Below are positions 7,793-38,851 of a stretch of DNA of 39,156 bases, in pieces. The stretch lies in IMG/VR virus record IMGVR_UViG_3300033233_000090, positions 1-39,156 of that record, one strand, 5' to 3'. Origin of the DNA: a virus. A program made the translations under genes and the position numbers. Numbering within the stretch: position 1 is the first letter of the stretch; each line of letters begins with the position of its first letter. Below the pieces are notes generated by a model, which was not told where the DNA came from, made no database searches, and was given only the letters and a program-made list of their open reading frames with translations.

Positions 7793-10159
7793 TCAGCACC
7801 CCCAATAAGTTTTGTTTCCATTGACAAGTTCAAATCTTGAATAGTTCCCTGTAGTTGTATTGTATAAATTGCAGTAGCCTGTGTATAATCCACTTGATTG
7901 GAATATTCCTTGACCAGTATTATTTCCACTCCACCAATAAGTTTCTAAGCCAATTGTCATATTGCCTTGCACATAAATTGAGGTAGCATTGAAAGATGTA
8001 TTATTTTTGATTGCAGAATTATTCACACTCACAATTGAAGAATTTAAAGAATCAATCCTTACAGAGTCATTGTACTTCGTGTTTATAGAAACACCATTTT
8101 CATAAAATATTGAAGCCACTGAAAAACCTGTTGAGTTTGTTGAGTTAATATTATTTATCCAAACAATTCCTGTAAAGTTAGCATTTGCAGCAACGAGAGT
8201 TCCAGTAAAAGTTGGATTAGCAGTATTTGCCTTTGTTGAATTAATCGAATCAATTCTGCCAGTTTGTGTGGTTATATTCGTTTGTATTCCACTTATCTGA
8301 GAAGTATGCGTTCCAACAGTTGTATTAACTGAAGTGATATTTGTTTGAATCCCTGAAATCTGTGACGCTTGAGTTACCTGCGTTGAATTTAAACTATCAA
8401 TTCTCCCAGTTTGAGTTACAAGACTTGCATTAACCGCTGTTGCGTTTCCAATAGCATTCATAATGGCAGTTATGTTCACATCAATAGTTCCTGCACCAGT
8501 TATTGGTCCACCTTGAGTATAATTTCCTGAATTCACTTGAGTAACAGTTCCTGCACCTGCAGTAGCAATACATTGAACACCGCTTGTTGTCGTGTTCTGC
8601 ACAACTTGACCGCTCGGACAATTACCTGGAGAAACTTTCGCAACAGCTGTTGAATTAACAGAAGATATCTGCGATGTATGAAGAGCAACAGTTGTGTTCA
8701 CGGAATTTAAACTATCATTCAATGCCCAAGGAACATTCAATATTGAAGAGTATAATATTCCAACATTCGTAATATTGTATCCACCGGCATCCCAATTATT
8801 TGATAATGGAATCATTCCATCCCTATGGATGCTTAAAGGATCTAATTCTATACCAACCTGAGAAGCAACTCCTTTACTTAAAGTCACCCAATCAAATTGC
8901 CATTTATCAGATGATACACCTATATTTGTAGTATTAAACTTTATCTGCACATTTCCATTACAAATATGGTCACTTGGATCAGCAACACTAAATGGAAGAT
9001 AATCATAAACACCGTCTGTATCTGTTAAGGTTTTATAACTTTCCCAAGATGAAGAATTACAAACCCATAAATAAAGTTTTAAACTATGTGGCTCACCAGA
9101 TATGGTTTGATATCTGATTATTATTTGATTAAAACTTGTTATTCCAGTAAAGTTTAATTGAAAATTAATATCTGCATTAACTTCACTGATATTATAAGGA
9201 ATATTATCATAAATATTTATTGTTGATAAATTTCCTGATCCTGTTCCAGTAATTACAGTTATATTTGTAACATTAAAATAAGATGTTGCGAGCGCATTAT
9301 TTATTGTTGTATTAAGAACTGTCTCGCTGAATGTCAAAGTTTTATTTATCGTCCCTGAAACTCCGATGTAAGAGTTTGCACTCGTGACATCCGTTAATTT
9401 TGTAGTATTCAAACTATCAATGCGTCCATTTGCAGAAACATTTGCATTCATTAAAGCAGAAATGTTAGTTTGAAGATTAGAGTCTGCTGTTTGCCTATTA
9501 GATATTTCTGTGTTTAAACTTGAGTTAACTGAAGATATGTTACTTTGAATTCCTGAAATTTGACTCGTGTGAGTTTGAATAGTAGAATTTAATGAATTGT
9601 CAGAATTATTTCTATTGGTGATTTCAGTATTCAAACTTGAATTAACACTGCTTATATTATTTGCAAGAGCAGTATCCTGACTTCCTCTCGTACTTATTTC
9701 AGAATTCAAAGAAGCGTTAACACTTGAAATATTATTTGATAAATTAGTATCTGCAGAAATCCTTGTTGAAATCTCACTTTGAAGACTCGCATTAATTGTG
9801 TCAACTTCTGTTTTTGTATAGAATAATCCTGTGAAGAAAGAATAAACTATGTCAAGAACTCCGCCAGTTGTTTTCAGAGTTGTCGTGTTAACTTGAATAT
9901 TTGAAATGTTTGTGTACTTTGAATAGTTCACGCTTGAATTTGACAAGTCAAGACCGGACGCATTCAAGTTCGTTATTCCCTGTCCGTCACCAATAAAATA
10001 TTTAAAAGTTGCAGTACCATTCACGCTTGTGATGTTTGTGACATTATATATAGCATACCTGTTCAGCATGTCCATACTGCTCGGAGGAGTATAATATGCT
10101 GATACAAGTGAAACTACAAGAAAGAGAGCCAATAATCCTGCGAATACAGTTTTTTTCAT
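7793..10159 (-). CDS. Secreted, sequon-rich fibre / adhesin
   Basis: 788 residues from ATG 10159 (AGAGGA upstream, promoter core 27 nt upstream). Residues 1-21 are a clear signal peptide (KKTVFAGLLALFLVVSLVSA). After a short beta segment (YFIGDGQGITNLNASGLDL), residues about 110-250 repeat a helical unit of the form ISSVNSSLNTEISNR. Later units read QTGRIDSLNST and SQISGIQTNIT. These resemble trimeric coiled-coil fibre stalks. A beta-rich insert lies at about 290-460, and the C-terminus (TYWWSGNNTGQGIFQSSGLY ... TYWGC) may be the tip. Dozens of N-X-S/T sites imply heavy N-glycosylation. A signal peptide is unusual for a tail fibre. Confidence 0.7.
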   Translation of the reverse strand: MKKTVFAGLLALFLVVSLVSAYYTPPSSMDMLNRYAIYNVTNITSVNGTATFKYFIGDGQGITNLNASGLDLSNSSVNYSKYTNISNIQVNTTTLKTTGGVLDIVYSFFTGLFYTKTEVDTINASLQSEISTRISADTNLSNNISSVNASLNSEISTRGSQDTALANNISSVNSSLNTEITNRNNSDNSLNSTIQTHTSQISGIQSNISSVNSSLNTEISNRQTADSNLQTNISALMNANVSANGRIDSLNTTKLTDVTSANSYIGVSGTINKTLTFSETVLNTTINNALATSYFNVTNITVITGTGSGNLSTINIYDNIPYNISEVNADINFQLNFTGITSFNQIIIRYQTISGEPHSLKLYLWVCNSSSWESYKTLTDTDGVYDYLPFSVADPSDHICNGNVQIKFNTTNIGVSSDKWQFDWVTLSKGVASQVGIELDPLSIHRDGMIPLSNNWDAGGYNITNVGILYSSILNVPWALNDSLNSVNTTVALHTSQISSVNSTAVAKVSPGNCPSGQVVQNTTTSGVQCIATAGAGTVTQVNSGNYTQGGPITGAGTIDVNITAIMNAIGNATAVNASLVTQTGRIDSLNSTQVTQASQISGIQTNITSVNTTVGTHTSQISGIQTNITTQTGRIDSINSTKANTANPTFTGTLVAANANFTGIVWINNINSTNSTGFSVASIFYENGVSINTKYNDSVRIDSLNSSIVSVNNSAIKNNTSFNATSIYVQGNMTIGLETYWWSGNNTGQGIFQSSGLYTGYCNLYNTTTGNYSRFELVNGNKTYWGC

Positions 10160-10167
10160 TAAATCCT

Positions 10168-10518
10168 CTAAATGATGTGCGTCCATTTAAACACAACTAT
10201 TCCAGCAATAATCGTGCTAATAATACCAATTAAGACACCGAGAGCAGTTCCCTTCCAACCGGATTCTTTTTTCTCCTGGTTAAGTTCTCCGCCAATATGA
10301 TACTCTTTGCATTGCGAAAGAGTCACATACCCTTTCAAATTATCTTTAAATGACTTGGTAAGCTTATCTTCCAAGTTCACCATGATCTGTTTAAGTTCAG
10401 CGTGTCTTAAATTACTCTCGTTCTGTTGTTGTTTTTGTCCTTCTTTCAAATATTCAATGTCTTTTCTGAACTCCATCAATTGCACCTCAAAGTCGTCGGT
10501 TAATCTTTTCTTTGTCAT
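10168..10518 (-). CDS. Coiled-coil protein with C-terminal membrane anchor (XhlA/holin-like)
   Basis: 116 residues: charged coiled coil (DFEVQLMEFRKDIEYLKEGQ to about 60), a linker with one cysteine, then one hydrophobic segment (GTALGVLIGIISTIIAGIVV, about 90-110) and a short tail. The layout matches XhlA-type or holin-accessory proteins. Its last codons (I-V-V-F-K-W) are encoded by the late promoter motif of the next gene. Alternatively it could anchor or help export the fibre encoded just downstream. Starts 1 nt after the preceding stop. Confidence 0.5.
   Translation of the reverse strand: MTKKRLTDDFEVQLMEFRKDIEYLKEGQKQQQNESNLRHAELKQIMVNLEDKLTKSFKDNLKGYVTLSQCKEYHIGGELNQEKKESGWKGTALGVLIGIISTIIAGIVVFKWTHII
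10186..10199 (-). promoter_or_regulatory. Late promoter motif, copy 3
   Basis: Minus strand TAGTTGTGTTTAAATG, inside the 3' end of the upstream coding region. The TTTAAA core is 27 nt before the fibre ATG at 10159. Conservation despite overlapping codons argues for a functional element. Confidence 0.65.
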
Positions 10519-21143: not shown

Positions 21144-22367
21144 TCATTTTAGTTCATTATCAAGATTCATCTCTCTATTTATGCATACTATCTTTGCAGA
21201 TGGATTTAACTTATGAAACCTCCTAATACTTACAGAAACATATCGTTCATCAATCTCCATTGTGTAACATTTCCTGTTAAGTTGCTCACAAGCAATCAAA
21301 ACACTTGCAGAGCCACCATATAAATCTAAAATATTATTTTGCTCTTCAGAATAATCTTTAAGTATGTCTGATAACATTTGAACTGGTTTTTGGGTTGGAT
21401 GAACTCTTTCTTTTAATTCAATATCTCTTTTACCTGCTCTTAATAATCCACTCCAAAGACATCTATAAATTCTTACACTTTTTTGTTTAAAACTTGTCCA
21501 TGCAAGTTCACAATCGGAAAAGTTATTATGGTCTGCTCCTTTTTCTGCTTTTTTATCCCATACAAGCCAATGACTATTATCTGGAAGTTTGCTTGAGAAA
21601 TTATTTGCTCCAAATATTATCTGATTTTTTCCATAAGCTAAAAGAAATTTTGGATTAAATTCTTGATTATCTCCTTCAATTTTTCTATAATTTTTAGCTT
21701 TAACTAATCCTTTTGTTCCTACAAATCCAGTATTGGCAGAAATGTCGGCATTTCTGCCATGAACAATATTGATTCCATATGGTGGGTCTGTTAATAGTAA
21801 GTCTGCTTTTTCTCCATTCATTAAAGCTTCAACATCTTCTTTATTTGTAGAATCTCCGCACATAATCCTATTTTTTCCAAGAATGAATATGTCTCCTCGC
21901 TTAATATCCGTTTCAACTTCATCAGGATTCTCTGCCTCAACCTCTTTGACCTCATCCAATCCCTTCACATAAGAGTTCACTTCTGTAAGGTCAAAACCTG
22001 TTAAGCTTAAATCGTAATTCAAACTTTGTAAATCAATCATTTCTTCTTTCAACAAGTCCTGAATCCAATCCGACTCCGAAGATTTATTATCCATAATTCT
22101 ATAAGATTTTTTCCTTGCTTCATCAAAATCTTTTTTTAATATAATTGGAACTTTTGTCATTTCAAGTTTTCTGGCAGCTAATAAACGACCATGACCTGCA
22201 AGAATAACATTATTTTCATCAATCACTATAGGAGTATTAAAGCCGTATTCCTCAATGCTTCTCATAATCTTTGTTATCTGTTTCTCATCATGCTTTTTAG
22301 TGTTTTTATGATAAGCTTTCAATTCAGATATATCCATCATTTTTATCTCACTTTCAATTGATACCAT
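21144..22367 (-). CDS. ParB-domain / DNA methyltransferase fusion (beta-class DPPY)
   Basis: 407 residues from ATG 22367 (GGAGG 9 nt upstream). N-terminal ParB/sulfiredoxin-like domain (10-90: VIDENNVILAGHGRLLAARK). Then a linker, then methyltransferase motif IV LLLTDPPYGI (191-200) and, near the C-terminus, HPTQKP plus the S-adenosylmethionine motif ILDLYGGSASVLIACEQLNR. Motif IV preceding motif I marks a beta-class adenine-N6 or cytosine-N4 methyltransferase, a frequent phage architecture. No partner restriction enzyme is present, so self-protection against host restriction is likely. Overlaps the upstream HNH gene by 14 nt. Confidence 0.85.
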   Translation of the reverse strand: MVSIESEIKMMDISELKAYHKNTKKHDEKQITKIMRSIEEYGFNTPIVIDENNVILAGHGRLLAARKLEMTKVPIILKKDFDEARKKSYRIMDNKSSESDWIQDLLKEEMIDLQSLNYDLSLTGFDLTEVNSYVKGLDEVKEVEAENPDEVETDIKRGDIFILGKNRIMCGDSTNKEDVEALMNGEKADLLLTDPPYGINIVHGRNADISANTGFVGTKGLVKAKNYRKIEGDNQEFNPKFLLAYGKNQIIFGANNFSSKLPDNSHWLVWDKKAEKGADHNNFSDCELAWTSFKQKSVRIYRCLWSGLLRAGKRDIELKERVHPTQKPVQMLSDILKDYSEEQNNILDLYGGSASVLIACEQLNRKCYTMEIDERYVSVSIRRFHKLNPSAKIVCINREMNLDNELK

Positions 22368-22998
22368 TGATTTCTGCCTCCAATTCTTTAAGTACATAAA
22401 ATGTTTGTATTTGTCTATCTCTTAAAATTCCCCCAAGGATAAAAGAAACATCTTCAAATTTACTTTTTGTTTTTACAATATCCCAAGTCAATACTTCAAT
22501 TATTCTGTGATGTTTTCTACATAAAGGAATAAGATTACTCTTTGAATTATCTTTTGTACATCTGTATGGAATAATATGGTGAATGTGAATCGATTTGAAT
22601 GTTCCACATATTGCACAGAATTGTTTCTTTTTGAAAAATAAGGATTTTATTGTATTAAAATTACCTCTACTTTTTATGTGTCCCCCTTTCCAGAAAGGAT
22701 TCTTTTCCTGTGCATATCTTCCAATATGAAAATTATATCTACATTCATTACTGCAGAAATGTTTTTTATATGCTTTAAACTTTGCAGGAATTATTTTTAT
22801 TTCTTTTTTACAAAAATCACATTTTGAATCTATCCTATTATATAATTTGTTTTTCTCTCCTTTTAATGTTGTTAAATGAATATTATAGCATTTTCTTGAG
22901 CAAAAGTTTCCAGAAGCATTTGATTTTTCTAAAGATGATTTATATACTTTAAAAGTTTTTTGACAAGTCTTGCAAATCCTATTAACTTTGAATTCCAT
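22354..22998 (-). CDS. HNH endonuclease with N-terminal zinc fingers
   Basis: 214 residues. Two zinc-finger-like modules (RICKTCQKTFKVY ... NFCSRKCYN and SKCDFCKKEIKII ... HFCSNECRY), then the HNH nuclease core (about 120-170): FCAICGTFKSIHIHHIIPYR followed by NLIPLCRKHH. Freestanding HNH enzymes of this style are often homing endonucleases. Base composition is more AT-rich than the neighbouring methyltransferase. Its ATG overlaps the upstream stop as TAATG. Confidence 0.8.
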   Translation of the reverse strand: MEFKVNRICKTCQKTFKVYKSSLEKSNASGNFCSRKCYNIHLTTLKGEKNKLYNRIDSKCDFCKKEIKIIPAKFKAYKKHFCSNECRYNFHIGRYAQEKNPFWKGGHIKSRGNFNTIKSLFFKKKQFCAICGTFKSIHIHHIIPYRCTKDNSKSNLIPLCRKHHRIIEVLTWDIVKTKSKFEDVSFILGGILRDRQIQTFYVLKELEAEINGIN

Positions 22999-30858: not shown

Positions 30859-31017
30859 CTATTCCTGCCCGTTTTCCAGGGTTTTCTGACTATCTATATG
30901 AAAGTCAATGCAATAAACACGGGCATCCAAATCGCAGTAATCTTCTTTCAAATCGCACCAGAAAAGAATGCCTCCGTTTGGCACTCGATGACAACACCAG
31001 CTTTTATCAGTCAACAT
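30859..31017 (-). CDS. 52-residue cysteine-rich protein
   Basis: ATG 31017 lies 10 nt inside the end of the cytosine methyltransferase gene with AGGGTGGG before it. Sequence: LTDKSWCCHRVPNGGILFWC, then DLKEDYCDLDARVYCIDFHI. Five cysteines and one histidine suggest a metal site or disulfides. The remainder of the gap, 30791-30858, carries only promoter-flanking repeats. Confidence 0.55.
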   Translation of the reverse strand: MLTDKSWCCHRVPNGGILFWCDLKEDYCDLDARVYCIDFHIDSQKTLENGQE

Positions 31018-32191
31018 CCCACCCTAAACTTTTTATTAAGTATTCAATAACATTGACTGTGACAGCGTTTCCAAGGCATTTGTATCTTTGACTGTCACTA
31101 ATCCCTTCAGTCCATTTATCAGGGAATCCCTGCAATCTTTCACACTCAGTTGGAGTAAGTCTTCTGATTACTTTGTCAAGACAAACACGGTGTTTGTCTT
31201 GACCAGTGAGAGTAAACATGTCATCGCCATCTTCCTTGAATCGTCTACCATTTTGTCGCTTAACTGGTCTGTCGGGTGTGAGAACTGGAATCACTGTGTA
31301 TTGCTGCATACCAGTGTCAAGAGTCTGTGCAAGTCCTTTTCCCACTCTACCACGCCGCGTGGTAGAGTTCGGAACGCTTAAATTAATCGAGTCTCCTTCT
31401 TCAGCTATTGCGAACCCTTGCTTTGTAGCTTCAGGTACTTTAATCTGATAAAGTCCAGTCTTCGCTCCTTTACCACATGCATTGGCACGGAGACTCCGTG
31501 CTAAACCATCAGTTGAATAAAGTCGATTTGTAGAATGAACTGGATTATTTAATTGCTTGATATAATTATCATCTCTTCCCATCTTGTATAAACGCTCGTT
31601 TATACAAGATGCGGTTTGAACTTGCCGTTGTGTTTCTCGTTCTCTGTCATCAAGGACTTCACAAGTTTTTCTGAAAGGTAGTATTTTTTGTCGACATTCT
31701 TCTCTAAGATATCCGATAATGAACACTCTTTCCCTGTTCTGAGGCACTCCGAAGTTCTTACTGTTAAGCACAACCCACTGCGCATCATACCCCAATTCAT
31801 CCAAGCTTCTGATGATGGTTTCAAAAGTTTTCCCTTCATCGTGGGATAATAAGCCCTTGACGTTTTCAAGCAGAAGAAACCGTGGTCGTTTATGTTTAAT
31901 AATTCTACAGATGTCAAAAAACAGAGTTCCTCGTGTATCTTTAAATCCTTTCCTTTTTCCAGCAATGCTGAAACTTTGACAAGGAAACCCTCCACAGAGA
32001 ATGTCGAAGTCTGGGAGTCTTTTTTCGTTAATTGTTGTTGCGTCTCCATAATTAGTTACCTCTTCAAAATTCTTATTATATATATATATTGCATACTTGT
32101 CAATCTCACTAAATCCAATACATTGGTGTCCTTGTCTATTAAAAGCAAGGTCAAAACCTCCTATTCCTGTAAACATACTAAAATATTTCAT
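31007..32191 (-). CDS. dcm: C5-cytosine DNA methyltransferase
   Basis: 394 residues. Motif I FSMFTGIGGFDLAF (4-17), motif IV GGFPCQSFS with catalytic Cys71, motif VI FLLLENVKG, motif VIII NRERVFIIGY, and motifs IX-X RLTPTECERLQGFPDKWTEG ... CLGNAVTVNVIEYL. The variable region between VIII and IX (about 200-330) holds repeated patterns (STDGLARSLRANACG, GKGLAQTLDTG, DDMFTLTGQDKH), and each lies at or near a perfect DNA palindrome. With no partner nuclease it likely protects viral DNA. ATGA overlap with the upstream 40-residue gene. Confidence 0.92.
   Translation of the reverse strand: MKYFSMFTGIGGFDLAFNRQGHQCIGFSEIDKYAIYIYNKNFEEVTNYGDATTINEKRLPDFDILCGGFPCQSFSIAGKRKGFKDTRGTLFFDICRIIKHKRPRFLLLENVKGLLSHDEGKTFETIIRSLDELGYDAQWVVLNSKNFGVPQNRERVFIIGYLREECRQKILPFRKTCEVLDDRERETQRQVQTASCINERLYKMGRDDNYIKQLNNPVHSTNRLYSTDGLARSLRANACGKGAKTGLYQIKVPEATKQGFAIAEEGDSINLSVPNSTTRRGRVGKGLAQTLDTGMQQYTVIPVLTPDRPVKRQNGRRFKEDGDDMFTLTGQDKHRVCLDKVIRRLTPTECERLQGFPDKWTEGISDSQRYKCLGNAVTVNVIEYLIKSLGWDVD
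31175..31203. repeat. Perfect inverted repeat 1 in methyltransferase gene
   Basis: GTCAAGACAAACAC-G-GTGTTTGTCTTGAC: 14-bp arms, 1-nt spacer, in the coding region (residues around GQDKHRVCLD). Confidence 0.85.
31344..31368. repeat. Perfect inverted repeat 2 in methyltransferase gene
   Basis: ACTCTACCACGC-C-GCGTGGTAGAGT: 12-bp arms, 1-nt spacer, encoding NSTTRRGRV. Confidence 0.85.
31485..31501. repeat. Perfect inverted repeat 3 in methyltransferase gene
   Basis: GCACGGAG-A-CTCCGTGC: 8-bp arms, 1-nt spacer, encoding ARSLRA. Confidence 0.8.
31580..31611. repeat. Perfect inverted repeat 4 in methyltransferase gene
   Basis: 15-bp arms (31580-31594 and 31597-31611, CATCTTGTATAAACG and its complement) with CT spacer, encoding SCINERLYKM. 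Confidence 0.85.
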
Positions 32192-33866: not shown

Positions 33867-34181
33867 CTAAGAATTTTGATGAACTGCCATGTGACAACAT
33901 CTACACAAAGTTACGCCTTCATGCTTTTCATAATCAGTATGATGGTATTCTAAATTATCAGTTGCACCACACTTGCTGCATTGTTTATCCCTTAATTTAA
34001 AGTCTTGTTTCCAAGTTTTGAACTTCACCGGATTATCTTTTTTCATTCTTTCCCGTTTCTTTTTCTGATGATCCTTCCAGTTAGGTCGTGTTTTTCTTAA
34101 TTGATTAAAATGTTTTATACGACATTCTTTAGAACAAAATTTTATTCTTGCTGGTTTTTTACATTCAATACATTCAGGCAT
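33867..34181 (-). CDS. Small HNH endonuclease with zinc finger
   Basis: 104 residues. N-terminal finger CIECKKPARIKFCSKECRIK, a basic linker, then the HNH core CSKCGATDNLEYHHTDYEKH followed by GVTLCRCCHMAVH. Own promoter about 27 nt upstream without Shine-Dalgarno (leaderless-like) and a T6 run after the stop, so it is an independent unit. Probably a homing-type enzyme, alternatively a packaging-associated HNH. Confidence 0.75.
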   Translation of the reverse strand: MPECIECKKPARIKFCSKECRIKHFNQLRKTRPNWKDHQKKKRERMKKDNPVKFKTWKQDFKLRDKQCSKCGATDNLEYHHTDYEKHEGVTLCRCCHMAVHQNS

Positions 34182-34290: not shown

Positions 34291-34533
34291 TTATTTTCCT
34301 TGCATCAATTTCATTACTGCGTTTATTCCAGTGCTTAATGCTGCAGGTATGCAAACATTCAAGAATGGTTTAACGAAGTTAGTCCAGTCAACGCTTCCAC
34401 TGTTCAGCCATGTCATGAGCCATGATGCTATGCTGTAAAGTGCTGCAGCTCCGAATGCTATGCCTGCACCTTTAAGTATCTTTTTGTAATCAGTAGAGTT
34501 AAGTTCTCCTGACACGCTTTTTGTTTCTGCCAT
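34291..34533 (-). CDS. Holin-like membrane protein
   Basis: 80 residues from ATG 34533 (GGAGGCAAT upstream). Two hydrophobic segments (ILKGAGIAFGAAALYSIASW and FVKPFLNVCIPAALSTGINA) separated by a short turn, small size, basic C-terminus: the layout of a small holin. Starts 35 nt inside the end of the transglutaminase-fold gene, giving a lysis-like pair, and is followed by a strong terminator. Could also be a membrane protein unrelated to lysis. Confidence 0.6.
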   Translation of the reverse strand: MAETKSVSGELNSTDYKKILKGAGIAFGAAALYSIASWLMTWLNSGSVDWTNFVKPFLNVCIPAALSTGINAVMKLMQGK

Positions 34534-35773
34534 TTGTATTGCCTCCAATTTTTTTATTAATTGATGTCTTCTTTCTTTCGAAGTCTTCATCAAGATAAAT
34601 GTATCTCGTGTTGAAACTAAACCATATGTCAAAGTATTTCTCGGCTTTATCCCATAAAAGATTCAAATCTTTTGATTCATCAGACCAATAACACCAGTCG
34701 AGTATAATCCACTTGTTGTCAAGTTCTCTAAGATAAGTTACCCAACAATGTCCTGCGGATCCTTCAGTTAATTTTATTCCAAGGTTTTTGTCCTTTAAGA
34801 AATTGTCCACTATTTTTCTCTTTTCCATGATGTCTACAATGACAAGGATTACATAATATTTTAAGATTTTTTGATTTATTGTTTTGTCTGTTTTTATCTT
34901 TGTGATGTATTCGAAGATTTGAAGTGTTTCCACATTCTTCACAAATTTTTGGTCTATCTTTAACTGCCTCCCAAGCGTATTTACAAAGAGATTGTCTGCT
35001 GATTCCTTTTCCTTTATTGCAAGGAATACTGCCTTTTTTAAATTCGGTAAGTACACTAATTCTCTCACCTGTTTTAATCCTTGTAGAATATGAGTTACTG
35101 TTATTCCATTCACTATTTCCTTTTTGAAATCCTTTAATTCCTTTAACCATACTTTGTTAAAGCTGGTAGACATATTTAAATTTTGTGTAATTTTTCCATT
35201 TCCATCATACACATCTCCTGCGTTTAATCTGATTCTCCAATAAGGAACACCGTTGCTTAAAAGAATGTTGGCCAGGTATATTGCACCATCTTCACAATCT
35301 CCTTTTTTTAAATTACTTGTTTCAAATGCGAAAAGCCAAGTCTCGTCATCTTTGAATTGTGAGGTATCTGATGTATATTTAGTTTTATCAATCACGTGTT
35401 GAAGACTCTTTTTTGCTATTTCATCATTACTTCCTGTAACGCTTGGCATAGCAAATGGTGTCCAAAATATTCGAGGATCTACTTCAACGTTATTTGTGCC
35501 TGACAAAATATTAGGTCTGGCAGGATAAGTATACCCCGAAGCTTTTGGTCTTTTATCATTCCAATAAGTCTCTTGATATTCTTCTTTTACATATTCTGCT
35601 AATTTATTATTTGCAGTTAAAATTTCAGTTTTTAATTCATTATTTAATGAAATTAATTCAGGAACAGTTTCGTCTTCAAGTTTGTCAATCTTTTCTTGAA
35701 GTAATTTATTGTCTAATTCCAAAACATTAGGACCTTCTTTTTTAATAAATAAATTTTTTATCCATTCAAACAT
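34499..35773 (-). CDS. Transglutaminase-fold cysteine protein, interrupted by an insertion
   Basis: 424 residues from ATG 35773 (GGAGGGG upstream). Coiled coil at 18-65, then the catalytic cysteine in KKGDCEDGAIYLANILLSNG (Cys160), with His342 in SAGHCWVTYL and Asp359 in KWIILDWCYW. The triad resembles phage transglutaminase-like proteins and archaeal-virus pseudomurein endopeptidases, so a role as lysin or tail-tip peptidase is plausible. The Cys-His gap of 182 residues is far above normal. The extra stretch (about 195-335) is the antisense-free, other-frame reading of an HNH gene that keeps this frame open. Whether the enzyme is active is unclear. Confidence 0.65.
   Translation of the reverse strand: MFEWIKNLFIKKEGPNVLELDNKLLQEKIDKLEDETVPELISLNNELKTEILTANNKLAEYVKEEYQETYWNDKRPKASGYTYPARPNILSGTNNVEVDPRIFWTPFAMPSVTGSNDEIAKKSLQHVIDKTKYTSDTSQFKDDETWLFAFETSNLKKGDCEDGAIYLANILLSNGVPYWRIRLNAGDVYDGNGKITQNLNMSTSFNKVWLKELKDFKKEIVNGITVTHILQGLKQVRELVYLPNLKKAVFLAIKEKESADNLFVNTLGRQLKIDQKFVKNVETLQIFEYITKIKTDKTINQKILKYYVILVIVDIMEKRKIVDNFLKDKNLGIKLTEGSAGHCWVTYLRELDNKWIILDWCYWSDESKDLNLLWDKAEKYFDIWFSFNTRYIYLDEDFERKKTSINKKIGGNTNGRNKKRVRRT
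34764..35150 (-). CDS. HNH homing-type endonuclease nested in the transglutaminase gene
   Basis: 128 residues, wholly inside the 34499-35773 frame but in another frame on the same strand. NUMOD3-like segments (FQKGNSEWNNSNS, FKKGSIPCNKGKG), then the HNH core ICEECGNTSNLRIHHKDKNR and NLKILCNPCHCRHHGKE. A TATA-like TTTAAATATG lies about 27 nt upstream of its ATG. It fills the abnormal gap between the host gene's cysteine and histidine, indicating insertion of a mobile endonuclease. Confidence 0.75.
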   Translation of the reverse strand: MVKGIKGFQKGNSEWNNSNSYSTRIKTGERISVLTEFKKGSIPCNKGKGISRQSLCKYAWEAVKDRPKICEECGNTSNLRIHHKDKNRQNNKSKNLKILCNPCHCRHHGKEKNSGQFLKGQKPWNKIN

Positions 35774-35789
35774 AGTCTTCCCCTCCAAC

Positions 35790-36020
35790 TTATTCGATTT
35801 TATAAGGACAATTACCTGTGAAATATATATCACATAATCCGCTTGTAATATCATAATCATTAAATTCTCTTGGAATACTTGTCTTTCCAGTTAATTTTTT
35901 TAAATCAATCAAAGGAATCGTTTTTTCATGATCTAAATAAACAGTCCCATTCATCATGCAATGATAATATAATCTTGATTTATCAAACAATATTTCAACA
36001 AGTTTTGTATCAATAGTCAT
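35790..36020 (-). CDS. 76-residue protein, paralogue of 19738-19983
   Basis: Matches the other copy from MTIDTKLVEILFDKSRLYYH through TIPLIDLKKLTGKTSIPREF to NDYDITSGLCDIYFTGNC. ATG overlaps the preceding zinc-finger gene stop as ATGA. This copy lies beside the lysis-like genes, the other beside terminase. Function unknown; shared ending recalls the phage (I/V)SHGIC motif. Confidence 0.6.
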   Translation of the reverse strand: MTIDTKLVEILFDKSRLYYHCMMNGTVYLDHEKTIPLIDLKKLTGKTSIPREFNDYDITSGLCDIYFTGNCPYKIE

Positions 36021-36154
36021 TTTTTCATCTTTGATTTTTGTTTATTTCTGCATTCAGGAAGACCGCAAAACGTCTGTTCTCCTGGAAGCGTTGTTGTGTT
36101 TTCATCATCTGAATTAAACGTGATTCCACAAGCACTGCATTGTTTTTGTTTCAT
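36017..36154 (-). CDS. 45-residue zinc-finger mini-protein
   Basis: ATG 36154 just after the preceding stop; own stop overlaps the next ATG as ATGA. KQKQCSACGITFNSDDENTT and QTFCGLPECRNKQKSK provide four cysteines for one zinc site. Confidence 0.55.
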   Translation of the reverse strand: MKQKQCSACGITFNSDDENTTTLPGEQTFCGLPECRNKQKSKMKK

Positions 36155-36156
36155 AA

Positions 36157-36585
36157 TCAAACGCCATAAATTTTTATTAATAATTCATTTATGTTTTTAT
36201 CAAAAGAAAATTTGACACCGTTTTTAATTGCAGTAGAGAGTTCTTCTTTTGATTTGTATAAATTAGTTATTTGCATTGCGTTAATCTTTCCTATTCCTTT
36301 GATTGCGACGAGTTCATCAAACCAAGTATAAATACCTGGATTGACACCTTCAAGTTTAAACGTTTTTCCAACGTGGTCAACAATATCAACTCTGCGTCTC
36401 ACATTATCCCCATATTTATTCAAGAGCAAATGATTAAGCTCTGATAAATATCTCGGTTGGTCCGTTCTCGGATCCAATTTCTTACTTGCAAGATTTAATC
36501 CGATATTATCTGTTCCATATGTGTGGTCGACAATTATTCTTAAAGTATTATTCTCTTCATACATTTCTTTTATTGTGTATTCCAT
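36157..36585 (-). CDS. Helix-hairpin-helix protein
   Basis: 142 residues from ATG 36585 (AGGTG upstream); the longer upstream frame overlaps the preceding gene and is rejected. C-terminal helix-hairpin-helix FDELVAIKGIGKINAMQITN (about 89-108), with the GIGK hairpin, suggests sequence-independent DNA binding. The N-terminal part (TLRIIVDHTYGTDNIGLNLA) is not recognised. Oddly placed between tail-tip and lysis-like genes. Confidence 0.55.
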   Translation of the reverse strand: MEYTIKEMYEENNTLRIIVDHTYGTDNIGLNLASKKLDPRTDQPRYLSELNHLLLNKYGDNVRRRVDIVDHVGKTFKLEGVNPGIYTWFDELVAIKGIGKINAMQITNLYKSKEELSTAIKNGVKFSFDKNINELLIKIYGV

Positions 36586-36589
36586 GATT

Positions 36590-36847
36590 TCACCTGTTAA
36601 ATTTATGATTAAAAGTTTTCCCGACAAATCTATCAGCAGAAATTTCAACGCTTGTATTGAATTGATCATCTAATGATTTTTTTATTTTATCCAGGAAAGC
36701 ATCGTTAATTTGGTCCTCAACTTTAAAACAATAAATAGGTTTTACTTCCTTATTTATTTCAGGATCCATATATTGAATTTGAACGTTAAATTTTCCTTCG
36801 CTTTTGTTTTCAATTTTTAATATTTTGAATTCGATTTCTTTATTCAT
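36590..36847 (-). CDS. 85-residue protein of unknown function
   Basis: Beta-rich start (IEFKILKIENKSEGKFNVQI) and helical end (INDAFLDKIKKSLDDQFNTS). GAGGGG precedes ATG 36847. Directly follows the tail-hub gene, so possibly a tail accessory. No domain recognised. Confidence 0.5.
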   Translation of the reverse strand: MNKEIEFKILKIENKSEGKFNVQIQYMDPEINKEVKPIYCFKVEDQINDAFLDKIKKSLDDQFNTSVEISADRFVGKTFNHKFNR

Positions 36848-36856
36848 GTTATCCCC

Positions 36857-38851
36857 TCAATTATCAAGTAAATGCTTGATTTTTACTATGCCTTGAATGA
36901 AGTCTGCAGATGCTGAACTCGGATTAACTCGAACTCTCCAATATCCTGCAGCATCAGGATAAACTCCTCCATTTGAGATACTGACATCTGTATCAAGTGT
37001 TTTTCCAGTATTTAATATGCTGTGTTTATTCACCCAAGTGCTACCATTCCAAAAATCAAGATATAAACTTACTTGGGTTGAATTAACTCCTGCAGCATTA
37101 CTTACGTCATCTCCAATTGTGATGTTGTTTATATCTGAAGCGAGAATGTCATAAGTTCCGTCTGTATGCAAATGATTCGCAGCTACTAATCCTCCACCAT
37201 CAGTATGATTATGTTGTCCTATACTTTGCATCATAGCATAACAATCAACATCTTGACTTGATTTATATTGAAGTTGAAGAGTATTATAAGGTAAATTATC
37301 TGTTATTACAATTCCGACAGCTGCAAAATCACCTGTTGCAGATAATACACAAGTTATTCCTGTTGAACTTGGATAATAAGTTGTTGTAGTTGCATCTTTA
37401 ACTCTTAATGTTACGGTAGTTCCAGCAGCTGCAGCATGACATGGTGTTAATGTAAAAAATGTTAAAGCTCCAGTTATTGCACCAAAATCAGATATTAATC
37501 CAAAAGTTGATCTTGCAACAAGATAACCTATTCCACCATCTACATAATCCCAAGTTCCATGATCACTATCATAATCAGTTGTGCCTGTTACCGTTGGTTG
37601 AGTATTTGCACTTGAATTCTGAACTTGAGGATCTGTTCCAGCATACGCAGCTGTTCCTACACCTTTCTTATAAGGGTCCACATCGTAGTCAACTGTGAAA
37701 CTATCAACTCGAATGTTCCCTGCCTGGTCAACGATGAACGCTGCAGGAATTTGAAACACGATAGCAAGAGGATAAGTGTTTTTTCCATTTAAAGCATTAC
37801 CCCAAGTGAGTGTGTTACCGCTTCCTTGCATGCTTGACTGCGTCTGCAAAAAATTAGCGTATTGCTTGGCATCGTTTTCAGCGATGTTCTTTGTAGCGAT
37901 TCGATACTCTGGATTAGTCACTTGCATAGTAATCTTTTCAGTACCGTTTCCATCAACTATTGTTTTTAATCTAACAATATGAACAGTCTCATTAATGTTT
38001 GCTGAATTATTTGTAATCGTTCCAGCATCACCAATGTTTAAACTATCAATTAATATAAGTGGTGTGATGTCATAACTTTTAGGTGTTGGATTCAACTTGT
38101 TATATTCAACAGTCGCCCTTGCAGTTGCTTCCGTTGTTGTTAAAATGTTTTTGTCGATTATTGCGTGAACAGGAACGCTTGCACCATAACTTCCTATAAT
38201 TTGGTCCTGACCATCTCCTTTGCCATAAACAATCACTTTTCCTGCCTGGCTTCTGCTTTTATCCCTTGAAATCCCGCTTGCATTTTTTCCTTCAATAAAA
38301 CTGAATCGACTTGCAACTGTTAATGAATCATAAAGATAAAGTTTCTTATTTGTTTGGTCAACATAAATATCTTTACCGGTTTGCTCGATTTCTCTAATGA
38401 CGGCGTTCCATACACTCTCCGTTGCAGAAACTCTGAAGCTCGCAATAACTGTCGCTGTTGAATTCGATACATCAACAGTCCATCCGGTAACGCTTGTTAC
38501 AAGTGTATTAAAAATTGTGTTTGCAGAAGTAGCATTCCATACTCTTGTTGTTGCGCTTCCGACCATAGGACATTTGTTATCTGCAAGTTCAACTTCGATT
38601 CCTTGTGCAGCGAAAACAACGCCTCCACCAGTCAAATCTTTTTTTCGAACAGTCAAACCTCGAAACTTAAGAGTTCCATTTTTATAAATATAAATTTCTT
38701 TATTCGTGTCAAAATCTGTAGAATAAGCAGTTGAGACACCATCCAATCCAAGTTCTGCAGAACTCATAGCGTTTAATGTTTTTTCAAAAGCAACACTAAT
38801 CCATTGTTTCGCTGCAGCGTTCCCGACCTTTATGACATATCCATTAGTCAC
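36857..38851 (-). CDS. Tail hub / tail-tip protein
   Basis: 664 residues from GTG 38851. The N-terminal 340 residues look like phage hub proteins: SVAFEKTLNAMSSAELGLDG, IYIYKNGTLKFRGLTVRKKD, then WNAVIREIEQTGKDIYVDQT, then SRDKSRSQAGKVIVYGKGDG. The C-terminal half is beta-rich with an HxH pair, SIGQHNHTDGGGLVAANHLH (about residue 560-580), as in metal-binding phage tail spikes and fibres. It would close the tail and contact the host. Overlaps the upstream gene by 8 nt. Confidence 0.7.
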   Translation of the reverse strand: MTNGYVIKVGNAAAKQWISVAFEKTLNAMSSAELGLDGVSTAYSTDFDTNKEIYIYKNGTLKFRGLTVRKKDLTGGGVVFAAQGIEVELADNKCPMVGSATTRVWNATSANTIFNTLVTSVTGWTVDVSNSTATVIASFRVSATESVWNAVIREIEQTGKDIYVDQTNKKLYLYDSLTVASRFSFIEGKNASGISRDKSRSQAGKVIVYGKGDGQDQIIGSYGASVPVHAIIDKNILTTTEATARATVEYNKLNPTPKSYDITPLILIDSLNIGDAGTITNNSANINETVHIVRLKTIVDGNGTEKITMQVTNPEYRIATKNIAENDAKQYANFLQTQSSMQGSGNTLTWGNALNGKNTYPLAIVFQIPAAFIVDQAGNIRVDSFTVDYDVDPYKKGVGTAAYAGTDPQVQNSSANTQPTVTGTTDYDSDHGTWDYVDGGIGYLVARSTFGLISDFGAITGALTFFTLTPCHAAAAGTTVTLRVKDATTTTYYPSSTGITCVLSATGDFAAVGIVITDNLPYNTLQLQYKSSQDVDCYAMMQSIGQHNHTDGGGLVAANHLHTDGTYDILASDINNITIGDDVSNAAGVNSTQVSLYLDFWNGSTWVNKHSILNTGKTLDTDVSISNGGVYPDAAGYWRVRVNPSSASADFIQGIVKIKHLLDN

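Follow-up and report, generated by a model that had tools for sequence, protein, structure and literature searches.

An out-of-frame HNH endonuclease gene inserted between the catalytic residues of a viral protease-fold gene whose reading frame stays open

Homing genes usually spare the gene that they invade, either by splicing, as in introns and inteins, or by residing in intergenic positions. Insertions of an out-of-frame HNH gene that leave the host frame open have been published between 2023 and 2025 for mycobacteriophage DNA methylases (PMC9957025, PMC11855218, PMC12613952). In the ShiLan domain of such methylases (PMC11855218; earlier PMC9957025), the host frame is devoid of stops, the HNH gene starts 18 bp into the insertion and terminates within its last four bases, neither an intron nor an intein is involved and leaderless translation was proposed, with the mode of expression of this type of nuclease being stated as an open question (PMC11855218). 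Other hidden HNH genes comprise Applejack gp54/gp55 and Pacc40 gp60 (PMC12613952, PMC11855218). Gene-splitting homing endonucleases such as Aeh1 mobE in nrdA and T4 mobA in gene 60 (PMC2988022) share with the locus described here the location of an HNH homing endonuclease in a critical part of the host gene without an intron, but their host is divided into two polypeptides, whereas in our case a single frame stays open.

This locus is part of a viral sequence of 39,156 nucleotides (IMG/VR record IMGVR_UViG_3300033233_000090), which we refer to as the window. An initial annotation based on the letters of the sequence had described an HNH endonuclease gene overprinted inside a transglutaminase-fold gene, and both open reading frames are found where it had placed them (host 35773..34499, minus strand, 424 residues; HNH 35150..34764, minus strand, 128 residues). 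The term 'overprinted' is slightly misleading, since the HNH gene entered the locus by insertion and not by de novo origin on top of a coding sequence already in place. The relevant features are listed below, where L010 denotes a close insert-free relative (IMG/VR contig 3300037692_000473) and HNH1 the inserted gene.

34499..35773, minus strand: transglutaminase-like (LapG/BTLCP-like) cysteine-protease-fold gene, 424 residues including the insert
35192..35773, minus strand: N-terminal host part with the codon of the invariant Cys160 (35296-35294), little diverged from L010
34502..34762, minus strand: C-terminal host part with His342 (34750-34748) and Asp359 (34699-34697), much more diverged from L010 at synonymous sites
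34764..35150, minus strand: HNH endonuclease gene (HNH1), 128 residues, out of frame with the host, PHROG HNH match
34763..35191, minus strand: insert, best estimate of 429 nt (host residues 195-337), from loop comparison with bacterial homologues
34754-35209, minus strand: insert, outer limit of 456 nt, from comparison with L010
35173..35180, minus strand: TATA box TTTAAATA within the leader, 30 nt upstream of the HNH ATG, preceded by a BRE-like ACAAAA
35188..35194, minus strand: AAAATTA at the 5' border, from the sequence
34769..34775, minus strand: AAAATTA at the 3' border in another phase, from the sequence
35231..35459, minus strand: recombination junction, a tract of 229 nt with about 100% identity to L010 that stops about 40 nt short of the inferred insert

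The host protein contains the motifs GDCEDG, GHCW and LDWCYW, which harbor Cys160, His342 and Asp359. In an alignment of 13 insert-free relatives, the columns of Cys160 and His342 are invariant, which supports the original assignment of both motifs, and Asp359 coincides with an Asp conserved at 90%; the protein shows the Cys-His-Asp triad and the fold of transglutaminase-like cysteine proteases. The Pfam profile Transglut_core matches the 424-residue protein with 20.2 bits, below its cut-off, in a region that stops before the insert, and the insert-free L010 protein with 26.7 bits, above the cut-off. The nearest solved structures, identified via the L010 protein, are LapG-type periplasmic proteases, and the fold and Cys-His-Asp arrangement are common to the LapG/BTLCP family (PDB 4u65, 4fgo; Peptidase_C93), from which the host protein differs by its viral origin, an N-terminal coiled coil and the location of its gene next to that of a holin-like membrane protein. 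The latter is a small gene at 34291-34533 (minus strand) that overlaps the protease-fold gene at its 3' end, and L003/L010 carries a similar gene at the equivalent position, suggestive of a lysis cassette in which the protease fold acts as lysin. No relatives of the host protein were found among isolated phages.

HNH1 is located between the codons of Cys160 and His342. Its ATG begins at the third position of a codon of the host gene and the host consequently reads its +1 frame, which contains no stops throughout the complete HNH gene, as had been noted before, compared to 24 in the other same-strand frame. Its product matches PHROG HNH families (best E 1.8e-7), shows a similarity to Pfam HNH_3 that falls below the Pfam cut-off (E 0.0043) and, by inspection, contains an intact CxxC...HH...N...CxxCH motif. 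The insertion extends the distance between Cys160 and His342 to 182 residues, close to the 180 estimated in the initial annotation, as opposed to about 33-42 in every relative where both motifs were found; the other relatives contain a short loop, and the long spacing is found in none of those lacking the HNH gene. The insert is absent from L010 and from about two dozen further relatives (viral L012-L025 and L032-L046, partly from the same contigs, together with six homologues from genomes), and the window contains the single invaded copy that was found. A search with HNH1 did not yield a match in the L010 contig.

The comparison with relatives lacking the insert that had been proposed for defining its borders provides two estimates. 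In L010, whose host protein comprises 272 residues with an N-terminal part that is 97% identical, the sequence GDV-QGG-GHCW replaces GDV-YDGNGK...LTEGSA-GHCW of the window, which sets the outer limit at 34754-35209, with a net excess of 152 codons in the window. Removal of residues 195-337 from the window protein leaves YDGNGK-GSAGHCW with a Cys-His spacing of 39, which resembles loops such as FDGSGK-SLGGHCW in the Nitrospirae homologues L028-L030, where the spacing is also 39. The resulting borders at 34763-35191 are inferred, since L028-L030 are distant and the turn in L010 is tighter. Within these borders, the 429 nt consist of a leader of 41 nt, the HNH gene with its stop codon and a single terminal nucleotide, with the open reading frame accounting for 387 nt and about 42 nt located outside. 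The two copies of AAAATTA, described earlier near both presumed borders, are present at 35194-35188 and 34775-34769, but they reside in different phases of the host frame and excision at these positions would shift the frame, which led us to reject them as a clean, in-frame duplication of the borders.

Both parts of the host gene differ strongly in their divergence from L010. In the N-terminal part (the first 188 codons), dN is 0.009 and dS 0.126, whereas in the C-terminal part dN is 0.096 and dS 1.65, corresponding to a dN/dS of 0.06. By this measure, the host gene is a mosaic, the junction of which coincides with the insertion, and the lineage that contributed its C-terminal part is far more diverged than that of its N-terminal part. 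A region of about 1.7 kb (35209-36960) shows 66-100% identity to L010, mostly 90-98%, and is flanked by regions of about 80% identity or less, and it is, judged from these identities, a recent recombination tract between the viruses of the window and of L010. The low dN/dS implies that the C-terminal part has been under constraint, possibly before the insertion, and the shift in dS is the trace that would be expected from break repair copying a cassette together with downstream donor DNA. Nuclease genes have been reported at boundaries of genetic exchange between phages (PMC10448857). With respect to a patchy distribution between divergent host alleles as a mark of spread by homing, we found one invaded copy, and the mosaic junction at its site is consistent with homing.

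The significance of the open host frame depends on the applied null model. When codons were redrawn from the codon usage of this virus with the HNH protein held fixed, the host frame contained a mean of 4.06 stops and was free of stops in 0.5% of the draws, while the other same-strand frame was never open. The open frame is thus improbable, as had been claimed, but the appeal to base composition overstated the case, and the odds derived from composition alone (about 5e-6 for 129 open codons) were discarded as misleading. A general tendency of this HNH family towards an open +1 frame was rejected, since six related genes contain 5-17 stops in the equivalent frame over 93-228 codons. Elsewhere in the window, the DNA cytosine methyltransferase gene at 31007-32191 (minus strand) contains an open +1 run of 151 codons (ORF 31600-32049, 149 residues) that we attribute to chance, illustrating that long open runs of this kind are not impossible. 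We consider the open host frame as moderate and only suggestive evidence that open frames were filtered for, either at the insertion or later.

The initial annotation had proposed that host translation either runs through the insert or that an undetected splicing step removes it. Searches for group I and other introns in Rfam gave no relevant match at the gathering threshold or at E<=5, and no in-frame canonical bulge-helix-bulge candidate was found at the borders when applying a strict definition. The host-frame translation of the insert matches no family among protein-family profiles (Pfam/PHROG), hence no intein was found this way. These negative results and the preserved host frame favor read-through over undetected splicing. 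Structure predictions with and without the insert, as had been recommended, are in line with this reading. A model of the insert-free protein (pLDDT 82) places the insertion at a hairpin turn between strands 181-188 and 191-199. In the model of the 424-residue protein, the pLDDT of the core is 89-98 on both sides of the insert and about 31-52 within it, the low values partly reflecting that relatives to align with it are lacking, and the protease core is predicted to be intact around an unstructured insert.

The expression of HNH1 would not depend on the host message. No Shine-Dalgarno sequence is found upstream of its ATG, which together with the TATA box points to leaderless expression. The TATA-like element reported initially proved to be real (TTTAAATA, 35180-35173) and boxes at this spacing are enriched before the genes of this virus: TTTAWATA is found 27-38 nt upstream of 5 of the 48 gene starts in the window, compared to 0.23 expected from random placement (P < 0.0002, or 0.0002 with four of the five starts), and at the same spacing before just 2 of 812 other ATGs. 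Two more HNH genes are encoded in the window. One is free-standing and located downstream of the host gene (33867-34181, minus strand, 104 residues); it carries TTTATATA 29 nt upstream of its ATG, in the same layout as HNH1, to which its product shows a weak match (36% over 52 residues). The other (22354-22998, minus strand, 214 residues), with a Pfam HNH match above cut-off, shares 44 nt with the beginning of a ParB-N/methylase gene (21144-22397); in the L010 contig the methylase is present and there is no match to this HNH gene. TATA-type boxes and the enrichment of N-glycosylation sequons in a surface-type protein of 797 residues (7793-10186, minus strand; 58 compared to 26.5 upon shuffling) suggest that the window probably originates from a prokaryotic virus with an archaeal host, an assignment that is not settled since the terminase finds its best matches in Bacteroidetes phages (42%).

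With the ShiLan domain, the element shares the insertion into a coding gene that is absent from homologous alleles, the complete HNH gene filling the insert in another frame, and a host frame without stops. It also shares an HNH start near the beginning of the insert with a stop 1 nt before its end, the lack of a detected intron, intein or ribosome binding site and a host-frame reading that is predicted to loop out, from which we conclude that it would work like a ShiLan-type element. The arrangement, considered atypical in the initial annotation, is indeed rare, although its novelty has in part been overtaken by the mycobacteriophage methylase reports. In contrast to ShiLan, the host gene of the window encodes a protease fold with the insert placed between catalytic residues, the HNH protein contains 128 instead of 195 residues, the virus is likely archaeal, a TATA box is located inside the cassette and there is one invaded copy. 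In Applejack gp54/gp55, whose sequence we have inspected, the host frame contains no stops through the HNH gene (chance P=0.26%), but the methylase reads the +2 frame of the nuclease instead of +1, and both nucleases share a core of just 51 residues at 35% identity. In the Klebsiella phage Kpp-61 (L051:1-2536), a homing endonuclease with an N-terminus related to HNH1 separates the gene of the terminase large subunit into two open reading frames and shares no open frame with it. By these comparisons, the window element is independent of the ShiLan-type cases with respect to host gene, nuclease lineage and reading phase, which together with the likely archaeal virus and the built-in promoter-like element are the new aspects of this locus.

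Our preferred explanation, which we regard as likely, is the insertion of a selfish HNH cassette into the protease gene, with the nuclease transcribed from an internal promoter, spread by homing and a host gene that is read through. In this mechanism, a cassette of about 429 nt, composed of a promoter-bearing leader of about 41 nt, an HNH homing endonuclease gene of 128 codons and a single further nucleotide, would have entered a viral protease gene at the site encoding the beta-hairpin turn that lies between its catalytic Cys and His. The nuclease would be expressed from its own TATA promoter as leaderless mRNA and would cut insert-free alleles, into which repair of the break would then introduce a copy of the cassette along with donor DNA downstream of it. 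The host gene would be translated throughout into a protein of 424 residues, with a loop of about 143 unstructured residues on an otherwise intact fold, since the length of the cassette is divisible by three and its +1 frame free of stops.

Other explanations account for parts of these observations. The insert could have disabled a dispensable host gene, with the frame being open by luck or because the insertion is too recent to have decayed, and the 424-residue product non-functional. We view this as unlikely but deserving of some weight, as a chance of 1 in 200 is not negligible, a single invaded copy is known, Cys and His are separated by the insert and another long +1 run is found in the window. 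It conflicts with a C-terminal part that is intact, in frame and of low dN/dS (although this constraint may predate the insertion), with the core fold retained in the predicted model and with the independent occurrence of the pattern in Applejack. The open frame would equally allow for the insert to constitute a functional domain, such as a regulatory loop or prodomain near the active site, with the HNH product being secondary; the host-frame sequence shows neither a confident fold nor a family match and is absent from all relatives, which renders this view very improbable.

HNH genes often ride in introns, and archaeal introns can consist of little beyond a homing gene. Another reading takes the insert as an intron, nearly filled by the HNH gene, whose removal from the mRNA would follow a mechanism that is undescribed or strongly reduced, and HNH genes related to HNH1 split genes in other phages, as in the Klebsiella phage terminase with its two open reading frames. 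We nevertheless consider it improbable in light of the negative results for Rfam introns and in-frame bulge-helix-bulge motifs, the mere 42 nt or so outside the HNH frame and the open host frame, which splicing would not need. Finally, the jump in identity to L010 originates in a tract of 229 identical nucleotides, where assemblers can join genomes, and the locus is known from a single metagenomic contig, as would be found for a chimera of unrelated viral sequences joined upstream of the insert. Such an artifact is highly improbable, since the N-terminal part continues without interruption and in one frame into the insert and the C-terminal part and since the upstream 1.7 kb, not being identical throughout, are not simply L010 sequence.

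Returning to the selfish cassette that is read through, its translation as part of the host protein would add a third route for homing genes, beside splicing and an intergenic position, to a record in which earlier descriptions were found solely around mycobacteriophage DNA methylases. The internal TATA promoter and leaderless start offer a concrete candidate answer to the question of how the nuclease is expressed, and the close insert-free allele of L010 is available for testing both the enzyme and the nuclease. More tentatively, and with somewhat less than even confidence, we propose an autonomous cassette with its own archaeal promoter, on which selection has acted to preserve the open host frame, such that it hides as a harmless loop in the active-site hairpin. 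If true, archaeal viruses would here provide their first element of this type, and frame-preserving hidden nucleases would have arisen repeatedly, in different host genes and reading phases, to offer an alternative to introns and inteins.
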